Shown here: one piece after another, positions 5,830-26,202 of the stretch
Position numbering within the stretch: position 1 is the first letter of the stretch
Layout: every line of letters begins with the position of its first letter
NCBI GenBank assembly: GCA_005116815.1
Contig: SWDR01000028.1
Location: 52,657 to 85,209, forward strand
Reading direction: 5' to 3'
DNA from: Nitrospira sp.
Lineage (GTDB): Bacteria; Nitrospirota; Nitrospiria; Nitrospirales; Nitrospiraceae
DNA length: 32,553 nt
Notes under the pieces: generated by a model
What the model was told of the DNA's origin: nothing
The model's database searches: none
Seen by the model: only the letters and a program-made list of their open reading frames with translations
Position numbers and translations under genes: made by a program

Positions 5830-6855
5830 ATGCGTAACACTCCTGTACCGTTCGCGAGGCACGCGATCTTTGCTATGGGCCAACTGCTATTGGTCGTTGG
5901 GGCCTTGTGGGGCTTCGTGGCCTGCACGAGTGGAGGCGGAGCGGTATCTTCGATCTCCTCGCGCGATCACCACCGTACTCCGTTCCAGGAATGGCAGATC
6001 ATCGACACGGCGACGGGGCAACCGGTCTCCCTCGACCAATGGACCTCGCTGTTGCTGCAGCAGGACATCATTTATCTGGGCGAAGAACATCACAATCGTT
6101 TTCACATTGATGCAGCAATACAACTTTTACGGGGACTGAAAGCGGAAGGGCGCACGCCGGTCCTGGCCATGGAAATGTTCGGCTGGGACGGCCAAGCAGC
6201 ATTGGATCAGTATCTTTCCGGTTCCGAACCGACCAGACAGGCATTCCTCGAGGCTGTCCAGTGGAGACAAAACTGGGGCGGTTCTTACGAGGACTATGAA
6301 CCGCTGGTCCTGTTGGCAAAGGAGCAACATTGGACGGTTCGGGCCATGAATCCCCCAAAGGCCTTAGTCCGAAGCGTCGCCCAACAGGGATTGGCTCAGG
6401 CACAATCTGATCCGGTCATGACGGAATGGGGCATGAAGGACGAAGCCATCGTCGATGATCCTGTCTACCGTGCCCGCATTCTCGAACAACTCCAGGCCTG
6501 TCATGGCGGCGGGAACGATAGCCTCTATCAAACAATGTATGAAGCCTCCATGGTCCGAGACGAAGCTATGGCCAAAACCTTAGTCAAACGTCTCACTCAA
6601 ATTCGCGCTGAAACTGATGTGATGGCAGGACCGCTGGTGAGCTATACCGGAGGCGGACATATTCAGTATAACCTTCCAGTTCCGAAACGAGTGGTCCGCC
6701 GCCTGACCGATCCTGTCCGCCAGGTGACTGTCTACATGACATCGTTCGAGGTGGAGCGTATCGAGGAACTACAAGAGATGATCCGGGAAAAGATTGCCGA
6801 TTATCTCTGGCTGACCCCTGTCAGTAGTCAGGGGCCGCCTCGCCGATGCCGATAG
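5830..6855 (+). CDS. ChaN family (haem-binding uptake, Tiki superfamily) lipoprotein
   Basis: The protein has 341 residues. It starts with a signal peptide ending in a lipobox (GFVAC, Cys32), so it is probably a lipoprotein. The ChaN domain follows: GEEHHN at residues 84-89, an AMEMFGWDGQ segment, a W-x-Y-EPLVLLA stretch, and a late GGGHIQYNLPVP motif. These conserved Glu and His residues define the ChaN/DUF399 family. Campylobacter ChaN binds haem and is implicated in iron uptake; TIKI relatives are metalloproteases. No iron-uptake genes are nearby, so haem binding is inferred from family only. A weak AGGTAGAG ribosome site precedes the ATG. The gene is divergent from the 437-residue unknown gene across a 138-base gap. 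Confidence 0.85.
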   Translation: MRNTPVPFARHAIFAMGQLLLVVGALWGFVACTSGGGAVSSISSRDHHRTPFQEWQIIDTATGQPVSLDQWTSLLLQQDIIYLGEEHHNRFHIDAAIQLLRGLKAEGRTPVLAMEMFGWDGQAALDQYLSGSEPTRQAFLEAVQWRQNWGGSYEDYEPLVLLAKEQHWTVRAMNPPKALVRSVAQQGLAQAQSDPVMTEWGMKDEAIVDDPVYRARILEQLQACHGGGNDSLYQTMYEASMVRDEAMAKTLVKRLTQIRAETDVMAGPLVSYTGGGHIQYNLPVPKRVVRRLTDPVRQVTVYMTSFEVERIEELQEMIREKIADYLWLTPVSSQGPPRRCR

Positions 6856-6903
6856 AAACATAAGCCGTGAGGGCCGCCTCTCACATACATATAAGGAGAC
6901 GTG

Positions 6904-7143
6904 ATGTCTGACAAACCAGTGATAGCCCAGCGAACTCCCTGCACGTTAGAAGTTGGTCCGGGAACCGTCTATTGGTGTCGATGTGGCCGCTCAAAGACAC
7001 AACCGTTTTGCGATGGATCCCATACGGGGACTGACTTCTCACCAATGGAAGTCCATTTCGATGAAAAAAAACGGGTCTCGCTCTGTGGCTGTAAACACAC
7101 GAAGAAGCCTCCCTTCTGCGATGGCTCTCACTCGAAGATCTAA
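6904..7143 (+). CDS. CDGSH iron-sulfur domain protein (two motifs)
   Basis: This 79-residue protein carries two copies of the CDGSH 2Fe-2S motif (C-x-C-x8-CDGSH). The first has Cys25, Cys27, Cys36 and His40; the second has Cys61, Cys63, Cys72 and His76. Each set of three Cys and one His should bind one redox-active 2Fe-2S cluster, as in mitoNEET and bacterial relatives. I chose ATG 6904 rather than GTG 6901 because AGGAG at 6894-6898 is at normal distance from the ATG and too close to the GTG. There is no membrane anchor, so the protein is probably cytoplasmic. It lies 48 bases after the ChaN-like gene and may be co-transcribed with it. The biological role is unknown. Confidence 0.92.
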   Translation: MSDKPVIAQRTPCTLEVGPGTVYWCRCGRSKTQPFCDGSHTGTDFSPMEVHFDEKKRVSLCGCKHTKKPPFCDGSHSKI

Positions 7144-7333: not shown

Positions 7334-7912
7334 ATGCGAAATAAGATCCCCTGCTCTGCTGAGCGGTTAAGCCTCCTGGATCCTCCTATGATCCAGGCAG
7401 TGGTCGATCGTAATGCCTTTCACATCGGCAGCCAGTACCTCTCCGAGAATCGCGTTCGAATTGTCGAGGCCGATGACGCGCAGATTTCTTCCGCCGTCAT
7501 TGGAAACTCCGGTCTCTACGAACAGACGATCCGTCTCAAGGAAGGGCATCTCATTTCCAAATGCAGCTGTTCACTGCCTGAAGAGCCCATGTGCCGCCAT
7601 TGCATCGCGGTTCTGCTGGAGTATCATCGGTGGGCGCAGCCAAGGAACGGTCAACAAAAGAAGACGAAGCCATCCGCAGCCCCGCAGCCAGCACAGGCCC
7701 CTCCGACTAACAATGGTGCGTCTACACCAACACCAACCGCTGCCGCGACGACGACGGACTTTAAGTTGGGGGAGGTGATGGCCTTCATTGAATGGCTTCA
7801 GCCCACGATCAAGGCGTTGGAGCGGTACTCAAGGCTCAGCACTATGGCCGGAACATCGGCGCGTCGTTGCCGAAGCGCTTTTTGCGGAGCTCTTCCATCA
7901 ACTCAATGGTAA
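7334..7912 (+). CDS. SWIM zinc-finger protein, probably 3'-truncated
   Basis: The N-terminal half looks normal for a bacterial SWIM protein: the zinc motif C-x-C-x7-C-x-H uses Cys77, Cys79, Cys87 and His89, followed by an IAVLLEYH helix. A Pro/Ala/Thr-rich linker leads into a helix (GEVMAFIEWLQPTIKALE). After about residue 158 the sequence loses its family character, and the last ~24 codons lie antisense to the end of the convergent radical SAM gene (71-base overlap). This suggests a deletion removed the original 3' end and joined it to the neighbour. The start is ATG 7334; TTG 7319 is in frame but less likely. SWIM domains bind DNA or proteins. Whether the shortened product works is unknown. 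Confidence 0.6.
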   Translation: MRNKIPCSAERLSLLDPPMIQAVVDRNAFHIGSQYLSENRVRIVEADDAQISSAVIGNSGLYEQTIRLKEGHLISKCSCSLPEEPMCRHCIAVLLEYHRWAQPRNGQQKKTKPSAAPQPAQAPPTNNGASTPTPTAAATTTDFKLGEVMAFIEWLQPTIKALERYSRLSTMAGTSARRCRSAFCGALPSTQW

Positions 7913-9227
7913 TCAGGGGGATGTTATTCTCGCGCGCATGTTTTTCGACGCCCTTTTTCACCATGGCACGCAAGAAGTAGGGAATCTTGTTGAGCCGTGA
8001 TTCCGAGTCCGTATCCCAGGCGATATCGCCTTCTTCTGGCGTATTGAAGGCGACTTTGATCTTCTCGCCACCCTTCGGCGTGTAGAGACACCATTCATCT
8101 TCGTCCAGCCAGTCGCCATGATCGACGTACGGGCGCGCGCGACAGCCGCCGCAGATGTCCGTGTATTCGCAATCGCCGCATTTGCCTTTGAGTTGCGGGT
8201 AGCGGAAGGAGTTGAAGACGTCGGACTTTTCCCAGAGATCGGCGAAGCTGGTCTCGCGAATATTCCCGGCTGATAGAGGCATGTAGGGGCAAGGGGTCAA
8301 TTCGCCGTTGGGGGTCACGCGCGCGTAGTTGGTGCCGGCAAGACAGCCGCCGCCCATATACCCGGTCGCTTTGGTGATCGGGGAGTTCGGATCTTTCTCG
8401 TACGCCAGTCTTTTGAAGTGCGGCGCACAGCGAGCCCGGACGAGCATGCCCTTGTAGTTATCCTGACAGTTGACGAGGTAGCCGAGCACTTCTTCGTACT
8501 GAGCCGGGGTGATGTCGGTGAGTTCTTCTCCGCGGCCGGTACAGACCATGAAAAAGACATTGAGCACCTTGGCGCCAAGTTGATGAGCCCAATCGATGAC
8601 CGAGGGTAGCTCCTGGTAATTCATGGGCTGGGCGCTGAAGTGGACTTGGAAGGCCAGCCCGTTCCGTTTGCAGGCCTCGATGCCGGCGAGCGCGGATTCC
8701 CATGCGCCGGGGACGCCACGAAATTGGTTATGCTTCTGGGGATCGAGCGAATCGATGCTGATGCCCATGCCCATCACGCCGATCTCGACCAGGTCCTTTG
8801 CCATTTGGTCGTTGATCAACATGCCGTTGGTCCCGAAGACCACCATGAAGCCGTGTTTCACCGCGTGGCGAGCAATGTCGAGGATGTCGGGGCGGACGAG
8901 CGGTTCGCCGCCCGTGATTACCAGGAGGCAACCCTTGTTGACCTCGGCAATTTGATCGATGAGCTTGTAACATTCTTCGGTCGAGAGTTCGTCGTCCCCG
9001 CCGGCGGACTTCGTCGTCGCGTCGAGATAACAATGGTCGCACTTGAGATTGCAGCGCTTCGTGAGGTTCAGCGCAAGCAGGTAGGGCTTGAAATCGTCGA
9101 CGGTCCGGCCATCGTGCGGCGCCGGGGCCGTGGACGACGGAGACATGAATTTCGTCACCTGTTGCTGAATAGAGCCGAGCGTGCCGCCCAGCGTTTGGAA
9201 ATTCAGGACCGGCAGCGACCGTCCCAT
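7842..9227 (-). CDS. Radical SAM / SPASM protein with C-terminal PCP_red domain
   Basis: The protein has 461 residues. The radical SAM cluster motif is C-x3-C-x2-C at Cys59, Cys63 and Cys66, followed by the SAM-binding GGEP at 106-109. A SPASM-type auxiliary cluster region follows, with Cys267, Cys295, Cys313, Cys350, Cys353, Cys359, Cys362 and Cys380. Residues about 403-452 match the PCP_red pattern (W, RLNKIPYFLR, VEKHAREN, ITIEL), a domain named from the C terminus of the protochlorophyllide reductase BchB/ChlB subunit. The layout resembles NirJ/AhbD-like haem-modifying enzymes, but the substrate cannot be named. The ATG overlaps the stop of the upstream USP-PCP_red gene as TGATG, so the two proteins are probably made together and may share a tetrapyrrole or redox task. 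Confidence 0.9.
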   Translation of the reverse strand: MGRSLPVLNFQTLGGTLGSIQQQVTKFMSPSSTAPAPHDGRTVDDFKPYLLALNLTKRCNLKCDHCYLDATTKSAGGDDELSTEECYKLIDQIAEVNKGCLLVITGGEPLVRPDILDIARHAVKHGFMVVFGTNGMLINDQMAKDLVEIGVMGMGISIDSLDPQKHNQFRGVPGAWESALAGIEACKRNGLAFQVHFSAQPMNYQELPSVIDWAHQLGAKVLNVFFMVCTGRGEELTDITPAQYEEVLGYLVNCQDNYKGMLVRARCAPHFKRLAYEKDPNSPITKATGYMGGGCLAGTNYARVTPNGELTPCPYMPLSAGNIRETSFADLWEKSDVFNSFRYPQLKGKCGDCEYTDICGGCRARPYVDHGDWLDEDEWCLYTPKGGEKIKVAFNTPEEGDIAWDTDSESRLNKIPYFLRAMVKKGVEKHARENNIPLITIELMEELRKKRFGNDAPMFRP

Positions 9228-11356
9228 CAGTGGCTGGCCCCGGACTTCGATGCACCGGTCAGGTTCGCAATCATGTCCTTCAGGTTGCCGGTCTTCATGG
9301 CGTCCGCCATGTAGTCCTTGGCTTGCTCGATGCCCTCATTGGCCACTTCGGCCGTAATGGCCGTGACGCCGATCTTATCGGCATGTTTTTCGATTAGGGC
9401 GCGGGTACATTCACGCATAAATCCCTCTGGTGCCCGTTCAAGCCTGGCTTGCGCGTCAGGAGACCAGGTATAGGGAGAAGCGGGGGCTGGTTCCGCCGTA
9501 TGGCCGTTCCCGTTTCCATTTTCATGGCCGTTTTCGTGAGAAGCGGCTGCACCATTGGTACCGTTTGTTGCAGCGGCGACGGTTGCTTGTGCGTCGGTCG
9601 AGGCTCCGGTCCCCTTGTTCGCGAAGATGGGGGTGTAGTCTTCCGAGGCCGCTTCCTGAATCATCGGTGCCGCATATTCCAGCGTGATCGTGGTCATGCC
9701 GAGCTTGCGAGCGGTCTTTTCAATTTTGGCTTTGGCGCGCCGGCGTTGGAAGCCAGCAGGGACTGCGCGGATGCCTTCTTTGGCATCCTTGGTCCATTGC
9801 ATGGGGACGTCATCGTAGGCCAGATCCGTTTCAACTGCTCCTTCGGCGTTCGCGGCTGCTTCGAAGATGGTCTTATCGACCAGCTTGAAGCGCTCGCCAC
9901 CGGCGGCGCAGACGGGGCACTTCACGGGCGTTTCGCCCTTGCCGATGTAGCCGCAGCCGTCGCAGACGAAGTAATCCTGGTTCATCCGGTCCAGGTAGCC
10001 TTGAGTCGCTTCACTGACTTTCGGCTTTTCTTCCACGATCTCGGTCATCATACCGCTAAGCGTCGAACCCATCAGGTCTTTTGCCACGGACTCGTCCGCC
10101 TGCATCTTGTCGCGGTCGATGCCGGCGGCATCCAGGCTGCCACCCAGCGCGCGCATGGCATCCATCGCGCCCTTGGGCAGGATGTGTCCGATGGCCGTAT
10201 CGACCACCGTGTTGCTGATGATGGTGTGGCCCTTTTCGATGGCATACCGATGGATGGCCGTCTTGGCCACGCCTCTGGCGAAGATCGGGATCTTTTCCAT
10301 CCGGCGGAGGGCTTCTTCCGTCCAGGCGATGGTGTATTCCGCCAGGGTATCGATCGGCGGCACATATTTCCGGTTCGACACCAGGATATTGCAAGGTGCG
10401 GCCCGCAAGAGATTTTCCGTGTTGCTGCCGATGTCCATGTCTTCGTCGCTATGCACGCCGATCCGTCCGACGATGAGCAGGGCCGGGATATCTTTCCGCA
10501 CATATTGAATGATCTTTTCGAAGGCTTTGCCGTCTAACAGGGTCGTTTTGACGTCGGTCTTCTCGGCTTGGGCGATTTCGCGGCAGATGTCGAGGTGCGA
10601 CTGGTAGATCTTCGCCAGGCCGCTGTCGATGATTTCCTCGTGGAGTTTTTCCTGTTCCTTGAATCGGAACACCTTGCCGGCTTCCTCGTTGAGGACGCCC
10701 GAGATGCTATGGAAGGCAGCATAGTGGAAATAGGGATCGAAGGCGGAGATGGCTTCGACCGGCATGTTGAAGGCCTTGCCCAGTGCCAGACCGGTCATGA
10801 GTCCACCGAAGGAATAGGGGCTACCGTCTACGGCGACGACGATCCTTCCGGCGGTCATCGGTTGGGTTTGCTTGACGATCAGCATGTCAGAGTTCCGCAC
10901 CCGACGAAGTACGCGCTCGGTATTGCTGCCGATCACGCTGTCCTTCACCGCGCCGACACCCAAGGCGCCCATGATCACCAGCTCGTAGGCATTGGTATTG
11001 ATGTCTTCGGCCAAGACTTTCCAGTTCCGGCCTTCGAGCGAGCGGCGCTCGATCGGCAGGTTGTTTTCCGCGCATTTCTTGTCGACGTAGTCGAGGTAGG
11101 AGTCGGTAATGATCTGGAGTCCACGGGTAATCAGCGAGTCGTGGATCTGGCGCTGACGGTCGAGCTCTTTTTCATCGTGGTACTCTTCGGGCAAGCCTGC
11201 TTCCATCTGCTTGAAGCGCTTGTCGTGCATCTTGGCCGCGTAGACGTGGCTACCCACGATCTTCGAGCCAAAGGCTTTGGCGAAGTGCACGCCGATGTCG
11301 ACGGCGGTGTTGGAATGGTCGGAGTTATCGACCGGCACATAGATCGTCTTATACAT
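9227..11356 (-). CDS. Multidomain universal stress protein: USP-USP-PCP_red-zinc ribbon-PCP_red-PCP_red
   Basis: The protein has 709 residues. Two USP domains (about 1-163 and 168-330) each keep the ATP-binding G-x2-G-x9-G-S pattern (G130, G133, G143; and G297, G300, G310). A first PCP_red-like segment lies at about 344-393 (W, RRMEKIPIFARG, AIEKG, IISNTVV). A rubredoxin-like zinc ribbon has Cys465, Cys468, Cys480 and Cys483. Two more PCP_red segments lie at about 519-568 and 629-680, separated by a Gly/Asn/His-rich linker. GGAGGAG sits 9 bases before the ATG. The gene is directly coupled to the radical SAM gene. USP domains bind ATP or AMP in signalling; PCP_red is linked to tetrapyrroles in BchB. 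The joint function is unknown; nucleotide-sensing control of a haem-type pathway is speculation. Confidence 0.9.
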   Translation of the reverse strand: MYKTIYVPVDNSDHSNTAVDIGVHFAKAFGSKIVGSHVYAAKMHDKRFKQMEAGLPEEYHDEKELDRQRQIHDSLITRGLQIITDSYLDYVDKKCAENNLPIERRSLEGRNWKVLAEDINTNAYELVIMGALGVGAVKDSVIGSNTERVLRRVRNSDMLIVKQTQPMTAGRIVVAVDGSPYSFGGLMTGLALGKAFNMPVEAISAFDPYFHYAAFHSISGVLNEEAGKVFRFKEQEKLHEEIIDSGLAKIYQSHLDICREIAQAEKTDVKTTLLDGKAFEKIIQYVRKDIPALLIVGRIGVHSDEDMDIGSNTENLLRAAPCNILVSNRKYVPPIDTLAEYTIAWTEEALRRMEKIPIFARGVAKTAIHRYAIEKGHTIISNTVVDTAIGHILPKGAMDAMRALGGSLDAAGIDRDKMQADESVAKDLMGSTLSGMMTEIVEEKPKVSEATQGYLDRMNQDYFVCDGCGYIGKGETPVKCPVCAAGGERFKLVDKTIFEAAANAEGAVETDLAYDDVPMQWTKDAKEGIRAVPAGFQRRRAKAKIEKTARKLGMTTITLEYAAPMIQEAASEDYTPIFANKGTGASTDAQATVAAATNGTNGAAASHENGHENGNGNGHTAEPAPASPYTWSPDAQARLERAPEGFMRECTRALIEKHADKIGVTAITAEVANEGIEQAKDYMADAMKTGNLKDMIANLTGASKSGASH

Positions 11357-23596: not shown

Positions 23597-24571
23597 TCAC
23601 GTTGTTTTCATGACCGACACGGAGACCGTCCGATAGGATGGGACCTTCGTCTCCAGATCGATGACACAGTCGAAGAGTCGCAGGGCGTCCTGGGCAAAGT
23701 GATCGGGAAGCCAGGCCAATCCCTCTGGCACGCGATCGAGTACTTTCACCGTCGTGGTGAATTCACCCCGGCTGTTCGAGAGGCGCACGCGATTTCCCGT
23801 GTCGAGGGAGCATCGGGCCGCATCCACGGGATTCATCTGCAAAAACCCGCTCGGTTCGATCTGGAGGAGCCCCTTCGAACGGGTCGACAGCTTCCCTGAA
23901 TGGAACAGGCTCTGGACGAGCCCAAGCTGGACCGTTCCCTCCGGACGCAGGGTTCGCGCGGGCAGAGTATACCGAGACACAAGGTCCTGGCGATATCCCC
24001 CGCCGACATATCGGTCGACAGCGGCCGCATCCACTTTGGGAGGGATCGGCGTGGGGCTGAGCGATCCATATCCGGGAATGACGGTCCGGATCTCTTTGAG
24101 GATTTCCTTCGCATCGCCGTATTCCAATGGCACGCCAAGGAACACGGAGATGGCCGACAGGATTTCCCAGTCGGGACGGCTGTCCCCCACCGGATCGATC
24201 GCAGGCCGAACGGTCTGAATGTGTCCTTCGGTATTCGTGAAGGTTCCGGCTTTCTCCATAGCGGAAGCGGCGGGGAGCACCACATGGGCGAGCGCAGCCG
24301 TTTCTGTGAGGAAGAGTTCCTGGCAGACGAGGAGATCGAGTTTGCCTAAGGCTTCTTTGACTCTGGTCTGGGGAGGCAGGCTCCCGACGGGATTTTCTCC
24401 GATGACGAAGAGGCTCTTGATGATTCCGGCTTGCGCCCGGTCGATCATCTCGATGAGGGTGGCCCCTGCAGCCAGAGGGAGCTCCTCTTTCCAGGCACGC
24501 ACCATCTGTGCGCGCGCGTCCTGAGCGGTGAGGTCGAGTGCGCCAGGCAGCAGTTCCGCAACCGCGCCCAT
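23597..24571 (-). CDS. nuoG: NuoG C-terminal fragment (separate frame)
   Basis: This 324-residue frame continues NuoG after a -1 change of frame at about 24571. It covers the later part of the molybdopterin-oxidoreductase-like fold: [54 protein letters not shown], and a C-terminal beta domain of the MopB type. It begins with ATG 24571, and AAGGAG stands at 24585-24580, 8 bases before the ATG, so it could be translated on its own. Adding one base before the ATG would give one NuoG of about 868 residues, a normal length. The cause may be a sequencing error, a real mutation or a working split gene. Confidence 0.85.
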
Positions 24572-26202
24572 TTCAACTGCTCCTTGACGAGCAGGAGATC
24601 GAGAAGATTGAGGCAGATGCCATAGGCACCCTGGCTGCGCAGCAGAGTTTGGCCGGCCAGCACGACAACCCGCCGTCCCTTGGCGAGTGACGAGGCCATG
24701 CTCGCGAAGGATTCTCGCGACATCCCAGTGTTCAGGGCCAGATCGTCCCAGGATAGTTGTTGGACCGCTTGAGAGATGGACGAGACATAGTCCGATGCCC
24801 GTTGACGGAGCGCATTGTCGATATGGTTACCCTCGACCACCGCTTTCAACAGGCCCAAGACGGCTGTGCCGAACTGGGATGGGGCCACACACAGATGATG
24901 CTGCGACAGGTTGGTAATGTTGCTGATCGTGCCGATCGCCGGCTGGAGCGCCTCGATCGTCAATAGGGTCGCGTCGTGTTTCTTGACGGCTTCTTTGACT
25001 TGAAGGCCGGTGATCGGGTTGGCTTCCGTGATATTGGTGCCGACCAACAGCAGTACGTCTGCTTGTACGATGTCTTCGAAGGTGACGGTCCAGCGATGTG
25101 TGCCTTGGACCCGCCGCAGGGCCTGGGTTCCGTTGATATGGCCGTACCGGGCGCTGCTGTCGAGATTATTTGTTCCGATCGTGACGCGCATGAATTTCTG
25201 GAATAGATAGAGTTCTTCGTTGGTGCAGCGACCGGAAATCAGTCCGCCGAAGGCTTGGGCGCCATGCGCCAGCTTGATCCGTTTGGTCTGTTCGGCCACA
25301 TATTCCAAGGCCTCTTCCCAGGTGGTTTCGACCAGCGAACCGTTCCGTCTGATCAAGGGTTGGGTGATCCGGCTGGGATGGCTTGTGGCGTGGAATCCAA
25401 AAAACCCGCGGGCGCAGAGGTCGCCGTTGTTCCGGCCGGCCCCCTGGGCGCTATTCACTTCGATCAGTTCCTGACCCTTGGTTTGGACCGTGATCTGGCA
25501 GCCGTCTCCGCAAAATGAACAGACCGTATCGGCGCGTTTCAGCATCCAGGGACGATATTCATACATCGAGAGCCGGCTGGTAATGGCGCCGACTGGGCAA
25601 ATCTGCACGCAGCCGCCGCAGAACTCGCAGTCTAACGGGTGGGCGCCAAACGATTTGATCTCGGTCATCGTGCCTCGTCCGACCGGAGCGAGGGCTTTGA
25701 CATCCATGACTTCGTCGCAGTAGCGGACGCACCGTAGACATTGCACACAACGGTTCATCTGCGTTTCGATGAGGGGACTGAAGTATTCCTTCTGGAAGAT
25801 ACGCTTGGTTTCCGCAAACCGGCTGGTGGTCGCGGTGTATTGATGGGAGAAGTCTTGCAGGTCGCACTTGCCGCCCTGGTCGCAGACCGGGCAATCCAGT
25901 GGGTGATTGGCCAGGATGAATTCCAGCACCGACTTGTGGGCATCGTGGACGACCGTCGTCGCGGTTCGAACGGACATGCCCTCGGTGGCAATCGTGCTGC
26001 AGGAGGTCTGGAGCTTCGGCATCTTTTCGACTTCGACCAGGCACATGCGACAATTGGCATCCGGCTTGAGCTTCGGGTGGTAACAGAAGTGTGGAACCAT
26101 GACCCCAACACGACGAGCGGCTTCGATCACCAGGGTGCCCTTGGGCACCGAGATGGGAATGCCGTCGATCGTCAAGCGAACGGTGTCGGTCGTGGTAGCC
26201 AT
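24445..26202 (-). CDS. nuoG: NADH-quinone oxidoreductase subunit G, N-terminal part (frame changes near residue 543)
   Basis: The frame has 585 codons, of which about 543 are NuoG; the last ~42 are out-of-frame sequence. Ligands for all expected clusters are visible. The 2Fe-2S site (N1b) is Cys40, Cys51, Cys54 and Cys68. N5 is His100, Cys104, Cys107 and Cys113. Two Cys sets at 152/155/158/162 and 192/195/198/202 support N4. An extra C-x2-C-x3-C-x27-C (Cys228, Cys231, Cys235, Cys263) matches the N7 cluster known from E. coli and Thermus. The first third of the catalytically inactive molybdopterin-type domain follows. The protein passes electrons from NuoF to NuoI. It starts 3 bases from the nuoF stop. 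Confidence 0.93.
   Translation of the reverse strand: MATTTDTVRLTIDGIPISVPKGTLVIEAARRVGVMVPHFCYHPKLKPDANCRMCLVEVEKMPKLQTSCSTIATEGMSVRTATTVVHDAHKSVLEFILANHPLDCPVCDQGGKCDLQDFSHQYTATTSRFAETKRIFQKEYFSPLIETQMNRCVQCLRCVRYCDEVMDVKALAPVGRGTMTEIKSFGAHPLDCEFCGGCVQICPVGAITSRLSMYEYRPWMLKRADTVCSFCGDGCQITVQTKGQELIEVNSAQGAGRNNGDLCARGFFGFHATSHPSRITQPLIRRNGSLVETTWEEALEYVAEQTKRIKLAHGAQAFGGLISGRCTNEELYLFQKFMRVTIGTNNLDSSARYGHINGTQALRRVQGTHRWTVTFEDIVQADVLLLVGTNITEANPITGLQVKEAVKKHDATLLTIEALQPAIGTISNITNLSQHHLCVAPSQFGTAVLGLLKAVVEGNHIDNALRQRASDYVSSISQAVQQLSWDDLALNTGMSRESFASMASSLAKGRRVVVLAGQTLLRSQGAYGICLNLLDLLLVKEQLKWARLRNCCLAHSTSPLRTRAHRWCVPGKRSSLWLQGPPSSR
24580..24585 (-). promoter_or_regulatory. Shine-Dalgarno before the internal nuoG start
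   Basis: AAGGAG on the minus strand lies 8 bases before ATG 24571. It is inside the nuoG coding sequence (codons for VKEQ) and could start translation of the C-terminal fragment. It may equally be chance. Confidence 0.45.

Follow-up and report, generated by a model that had tools for sequence, protein, structure and literature searches.

The coproporphyrin route can end with either of two enzymes, AhbD or HemQ/ChdC, according to excerpts of PMC7242693. The PCP_red domain (PF08369) forms the C terminus of BchB and is familiar from a single step in chlorophyll synthesis. Globally, a large part of nitrite oxidation is due to Nitrospira. With Nitrospina and anammox bacteria they share a bd-like oxidase that is conserved together with nitrite oxidoreductase (NXR) and whose function is called enigmatic in the excerpts available of PMC3578206 and PMC6606698. 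Our analysis concerns a stretch of 32,553 nucleotides from Nitrospira sp. (assembly GCA_005116815.1, a draft genome that is 72% complete; contig SWDR01000028.1, positions 52,657 to 85,209), hereafter the window. It carries two adjoining genes, termed USP-PCP and rSAM-PCP, whose products contain four PCP_red domains between them. One product is built on tandem Usp domains, and the other is a radical S-adenosylmethionine (SAM) enzyme related to AhbD and NirJ.

In relatives that have them, the two genes are nearly always adjacent, and outside the window's class the pair co-occurs with bd-like oxidases. It probably handles a tetrapyrrole of some kind, and we see about an even chance that it tailors or delivers haem to serve bd-like oxidases and related respiratory complexes. 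Such a conserved pair of radical SAM and Usp proteins with PCP_red, tracking the oxidases as it does, points to a maturation route that can be tested, and PCP_red may turn out to be a general domain of haem enzymes.

A conserved gene pair with four PCP_red domains

Both open reading frames (ORFs) lie on the minus strand. The USP-PCP gene (9227..11356) encodes 709 amino acids in the order Usp-Usp-PCP_red-rubredoxin-like ribbon-PCP_red-PCP_red, as delimited by Pfam, single-domain scores and alignment. The rSAM-PCP gene (7842..9227) encodes 461 amino acids in the order Radical_SAM-SPASM-PCP_red and is AhbD/NirJ-like by Pfam, NCBIfam and a tree. The two genes overlap by one base within TGATG. This architecture had been proposed from the letters alone, as two Usp domains, a zinc ribbon and three PCP_red segments in one protein and a further C-terminal PCP_red in the adjoining radical SAM/SPASM enzyme, and Pfam bears it out. 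In USP-PCP, Usp reaches 105.8 bits over two stretches (cut-off 24), PCP_red 109.8 bits over three (cut-off 32.5) and RUBY_RBDX 26.5 bits, exactly at its cut-off. In rSAM-PCP, Radical_SAM, SPASM and PCP_red score 85.8, 43.7 and 53.1 bits.

The PCP_red domains are not chance matches, because each exceeds the 32.5-bit cut-off when scored singly. The domain of rSAM-PCP (residues 404-448; 7884..8018) reaches 57.4 bits, and those of USP-PCP reach 52.0 (residues 345-388; 10193..10324), 39.6 (9677..9796) and 39.6 bits (9341..9466). The first of the latter three, which the original prediction described as diverged and easily missed, is instead the best-scoring of them.

Usp domain 1 (residues 1-161; 10874..11356) is the best Pfam stretch, and Usp domain 2 (residues ~170-328; 10373..10849) is the second, with limits taken from the alignment and from model secondary structure. 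Their glycines, arranged as G130xxG133...G143S and G297xxG300...G310S, are kept in at least 24 of 25 diverse rows, as in PF00582 proteins; the pattern G-2x-G-9x-G(S/T) is the nucleotide-binding motif of Usp proteins. Six histidines, H37, H44 and H72 in domain 1 and H211, H239 and H302 in domain 2, are invariant in all 25 rows. The rubredoxin-like ribbon (residues 463-491; 9884..9970) has four cysteines, C465, C468, C480 and C483, that are invariant in 20 rows. The top Foldseek matches are tandem Usp proteins (Rv2623, UspE and TTHA0350; E 5e-14 downwards), with which USP-PCP also shares the nucleotide-site glycines. It differs from them in its six invariant histidines, in long conserved inserts, in its tail of PCP_red domains and ribbon, and in its operon with a radical SAM enzyme.

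Conservation was surveyed in 295 genomes, all of Nitrospirota, of which 113 belong to the window's class (a class size taken from listing order). At E 1e-60, the radical SAM gene is found in 108 of these 113. Relatives with 77-99% identity to it occupy 78 loci in Nitrospira, including N. moscoviensis, and in other Nitrospirales and Nitrospirota bins. Mechanical ORF calling, which failed to resolve one locus of the survey (L250 in G163; we number loci L, genomes G and families f), recovers both genes on the same strand in 66 of the 78. In all 66 they are adjacent and the Usp protein carries three PCP_red domains. A tblastn pass raises the loci with both genes to 74, and in the four exceptions (L011, L017, L054 and L081) the radical SAM match starts within ~120 bases of a contig end. 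Outside the class, adjacency holds in 21 of 23 loci. Thus, the adjacency that the original prediction had expected of relatives is observed. The gene overlap was rejected as a conserved feature, being found in only 12 of the 66 Nitrospira pairs; in most, a gap of 75-114 nucleotides separates the genes.

Flanking genes vary between lineages, and therefore the pair moves as a unit. A plasmid search gave no match to the Usp part and, for the radical SAM part, only distant radical SAM proteins of <60% identity, most of the matches listed being annotated as TIGR04053. In many loci beyond the class, a bare tandem Usp protein that lacks PCP_red takes the partner's place, and in family f19 four PCP_red domains reside on the radical SAM protein and two on the Usp protein. 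This redistribution of PCP_red between the partners speaks for a joint function.

Relationship to haem enzymes and other PCP_red proteins

The Radical_SAM domain of rSAM-PCP (residues 54-192; 8652..9068) contains the CX3CX2C cluster motif (C59, C63 and C66; 9030..9053). Within and around the SPASM domain (residues 295-354; 8166..8345) lie the auxiliary cysteines C267, C295, C313, C350, C353, C359, C362 and C380. The cluster motif and all eight auxiliary cysteines are conserved in at least 95% of 30 rows, the pattern of a radical SAM/SPASM enzyme. These features are also present in six AhbD rows, whereas two NirJ-like rows lack C267, C295 and C313.

The NCBIfam scores all fall short of their cut-offs: NirJ2 (TIGR04055) is the best at 333.0 bits (cut-off 500), followed by AhbD (TIGR04545) at 316.3 bits (cut-off 500) and NirJ (TIGR04051) at 174.8 bits (cut-off 515.45). 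A tree of 38 rows, to be read with a warning of long branches, places the PCP_red-bearing radical SAM proteins beside AhbD and apart from the two NirJ-like rows. Most members of the group have the core motif WN-T..CNLxCxHCY, which they share with the NirJ-like rows and in which the window reads LN for WN; the six AhbD rows have WE-T..CxHCR instead. Moreover, rSAM-PCP is found alongside a separate AhbD in 17 of 55 genomes of the panel described below, and a NirJ-like protein in one locus with the pair (L260) lacks PCP_red. Because of the scores below cut-off for AhbD and NirJ2, the tree position and the core motif, we take rSAM-PCP as a separate subfamily within the haem-modifying branch.

PCP_red occurs in 164 of the 295 genomes, among them every one of the 113 in the class; 10-13 copies are usual in the order. 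The window's genome has eight matches, four in the pair and four in a 333-amino-acid tandem PCP_red protein. The Usp, radical SAM and tandem PCP_red genes are contiguous in families f6 and f9 (L245 and L246). A third type of protein, a zinc ribbon with one or two PCP_red domains, is encoded immediately after the gene for an Mrp/NUBPL-type Fe-S carrier ATPase (L119, L121, L122, L124 and L137; domain-scanned in L119). Within 20 kb, L249 encodes USP-PCP, rSAM-PCP, a protein with four PCP_red domains, a haem-oxygenase-like protein, a zinc-ribbon/PCP_red protein, Mrp and a bd-like oxidase. The zinc-ribbon/PCP_red protein stands beside the Mrp/NUBPL-type ATPase at L119:7923-9632, L124:141-1435 and L249:9260-10868, and a haem-oxygenase-like (CADD/TENA) protein is next to it in L122, L137 and L249, identified by scan only in L249.

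PCP_red is also fused to known haem enzymes. It forms the N terminus of Chlor_dismutase/HemQ-family proteins in four loci: two are HemQ-like Chlor_dismutase fusions (L253:4800-5747 and L254:4645-5595), each next to a convergently oriented protoporphyrinogen oxidase-like gene, and two are similar fusions with a more distant Cld domain (L255:4536-5561 and L256:4583-5617). The catalytic fold of HemQ/ChdC is unrelated to that of the radical SAM enzyme. In G145 (L259), PCP_red is missing from the HemQ-like protein. In family f17, the AhbD proteins themselves end in PCP_red, as rSAM-PCP does (L265:3583-4971 and L266:990-2378; 489 and 488 bits, against the cut-off of 500). Because of these fusions in related genomes, PCP_red is placed on HemQ/ChdC-like proteins and on AhbD as well as on BchB and the window's enzyme.

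The solved relatives of the four window domains are 2kru and BchB chains, and all four pass the Pfam profile of the BchB C-terminal domain. However, the window proteins lack the BchB body (TIGR01278 scores 62.8 bits against 490.35, for the C-terminal domain only) and have another catalytic partner. Chlorophyll synthesis was rejected as a role, since the window PCP_red domains are not on a BchB body; BchN and BchL were not searched for. A literature search on PCP_red returned only unrelated papers, and the listings, whose coverage did not extend to supplements, had nothing on the USP-PCP/rSAM-PCP pair.

Association with bd-like oxidases and respiratory genes

With the protein of L131 as query, bd-like oxidases are matched in 138 of the 295 genomes, including 113 of 113 in the class. 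Outside the class, co-occurrence was tested in 166 of 182 genomes; the other 16 have neither a family nor a match to rSAM-PCP or bd-like oxidase in the printed results. Both genes are present in 22 genomes and neither in 137, with radical SAM alone in four (G002, G008, G228 and G279) and oxidase alone in three (G030, G069 and G275, the last a borderline match; Fisher p 2e-20). In a within-family permutation, 15.5 joint cases are expected, and the 22 observed were reached in none of 20,000 permutations.

Gene order shows the same association. In L231-L234, the USP, rSAM-PCP and bd-like oxidase genes are contiguous and accompanied by cytochromes c. The oxidase operon of L231 runs into type II dimethyl sulfoxide (DMSO) reductase alpha and beta genes, identified by scan, and L232 and L233 have ORFs of the same size. 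In L260, the pair is upstream of cd1 nitrite reductase (NirS, identified by a scan of the same gene in L238), together with NirJ-like, NirF-like and AhbA/B-like genes. In L235, rSAM-PCP precedes NosZ, and NosL is nearby in L242. In sum, neighbours outside Nitrospira include bd-like oxidases, cytochromes c, cd1 nitrite reductase with haem d1 genes, NosZ and protoporphyrinogen oxidase, and in several genomes in which the oxidase touches the pair, nitrite-oxidoreductase-like, NirS or NosZ genes are near it. Haem or cytochrome neighbours occur in 13 of 21 outside-class loci, a raw count with no baseline from which three loci that were too short, and L134, were left out.

Several further genes near the pair were observed. 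In family f19, a protoporphyrinogen oxidase-like gene directly follows rSAM-PCP (L126:6324-7712, L128:3199-4587 and L129:3184-4575), and G008 and G049 have a separate cluster of HemN, HemH and protoporphyrinogen oxidase elsewhere in the genome. A conserved protein of ~230 amino acids and no clear family is encoded downstream of or near the pair outside the class (L131:8540-9256, L132:2188-2841, L260:15625-16320 and eight more loci). A PDB search with one member, P8540, found nothing significant, and one member matches PNPOx_N at E 0.0015, below the cut-off. In the window, a ChaN-type haem-binding protein (Cofac_haem_bdg, 164 bits) is encoded on the opposite strand at 5830-6855, ~1 kb downstream of the pair; a gene of this type is also present farther downstream in L017, L022, L025, L083 and L085.

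Possible roles of the pair

In the role that we favour, both genes would specify one cytoplasmic system for handling a tetrapyrrole, which is most probably an iron porphyrin. Like its relatives AhbD and NirJ, the radical SAM/SPASM protein would act chemically on ring side chains, and the PCP_red domains, carried by both partners and by further proteins, may hold the ring or pass it on. The tandem Usp domains have two nucleotide sites as well as the six invariant histidines, and could serve as a nucleotide-binding carrier or chaperone. The presumed clients of the product would be the bd-like oxidases and the neighbouring nitrogen-oxide respiratory complexes. The original prediction of a tetrapyrrole-handling or haem-modifying system thus appears sound in outline, as judged from the AhbD and NirJ families being nearest, the PCP_red fusions and the haem and cytochrome neighbours. 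It is improbable that the pair makes an undescribed modified haem for the bd-like oxidases, presumed to be terminal oxidases or quinone-coupling complexes of nitrite-oxidising Nitrospira, and that PCP_red is a portable tetrapyrrole carrier linking coprohaem decarboxylases, the radical SAM enzyme and the Usp chaperone in a channelled pathway.

A number of observations weigh against a role in haem supply to oxidases. Outside the class, both co-occurrence and gene linkage with the oxidase are found, as proposed for a maturation system, but linkage is absent in Nitrospira: no bd-like oxidase or cytochrome gene is beside the pair in the window, and the Nitrospira loci have no haem or respiratory neighbour of the kind seen outside the class. 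Even there, eight of the 21 loci counted lack haem or cytochrome neighbours. A general tie to oxygen or nitrogen-oxide respiration could also explain the co-occurrence. Haem binding by any of these proteins is a prediction, and peptides are the substrates of many SPASM enzymes. The weak structure models add no support, with a mean predicted local distance difference test score of 61 for the Usp protein and of 53 for the radical SAM protein, the latter too poor for placing an active site.

An enzyme so close to AhbD might simply be an oxygen-independent coprohaem decarboxylase, a second haem b synthase for conditions in which the peroxide-dependent HemQ/ChdC cannot work. Nitrospira have protoporphyrinogen oxidase, ferrochelatase (except family f2 and G189) and a HemQ-like protein, and thus the coproporphyrin route, for which AhbD is the alternative last enzyme cited at the outset; furthermore, both known coprohaem decarboxylases occur as fusions with PCP_red. 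However, in a panel of 76 genomes selected on radical SAM status, 52 of the 55 with rSAM-PCP already have another terminal enzyme, namely AhbD (the 17 noted above), HemN, HemF or a Cld/HemQ-like protein. The three without one (G012, G054 and G240) are fragmented assemblies. The NirJ-like core motif also argues against AhbD activity. That the haem b route varies by lineage while the pair is constant speaks against an ordinary haem b synthase. Because 52 of 55 genomes have another enzyme that makes haem b, a role as sole haem b synthase was rejected, and rSAM-PCP is probably something other than a simple haem b synthase. We therefore regard the decarboxylase proposal as unlikely. Five genomes of family f2 (G081, G137, G179, G191 and G252) and G189 have no ferrochelatase match at E 1e-10, yet have protoporphyrinogen oxidase and a HemQ-like protein; their ferrochelatase appears to be missing or very different.

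The radical SAM/SPASM protein might instead modify a peptide or protein residue, for example by forming a crosslink or thioether in a bd-like oxidase or cytochrome, with PCP_red as a protein-docking domain. The solved SPASM structures matched are mostly peptide or small-molecule enzymes (such as PqqE and SkfB), and bd-like oxidase genes adjoin rSAM-PCP in L231-L234. Nevertheless, the closest families and the fusion partners of PCP_red are haem enzymes, and no gene for a small precursor peptide was recognised beside the pair among ORFs of at least 80 amino acids, the shortest listed, so this proposal seems quite unlikely. It is very unlikely that the pair is a sensor, in which Usp would read the ATP or oxygen state and control the radical SAM enzyme or a regulator, with the tetrapyrrole as the signal. 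Energy or redox sensing was also part of the original prediction. The nucleotide-binding glycines are kept in both Usp domains, and excerpts of PMC8115632 report that UspA proteins are upregulated in N. marina at low oxygen and do not state whether the window's type is included. Against a sensor stand the constant pairing with an enzyme, the bare tandem Usp partner in many outside-class loci and the absence of any Pfam match to a DNA-binding or kinase domain.

Two other features of the window were noted. At 23597-26202 on the minus strand, a NuoG-like molybdopterin domain is split over overlapping ORFs of 585 and 324 amino acids, which is either an assembly frameshift or a real split. At 6901-7143 on the plus strand, an ORF of 80 amino acids contains a CDGSH motif, typical of CDGSH iron-sulphur proteins.

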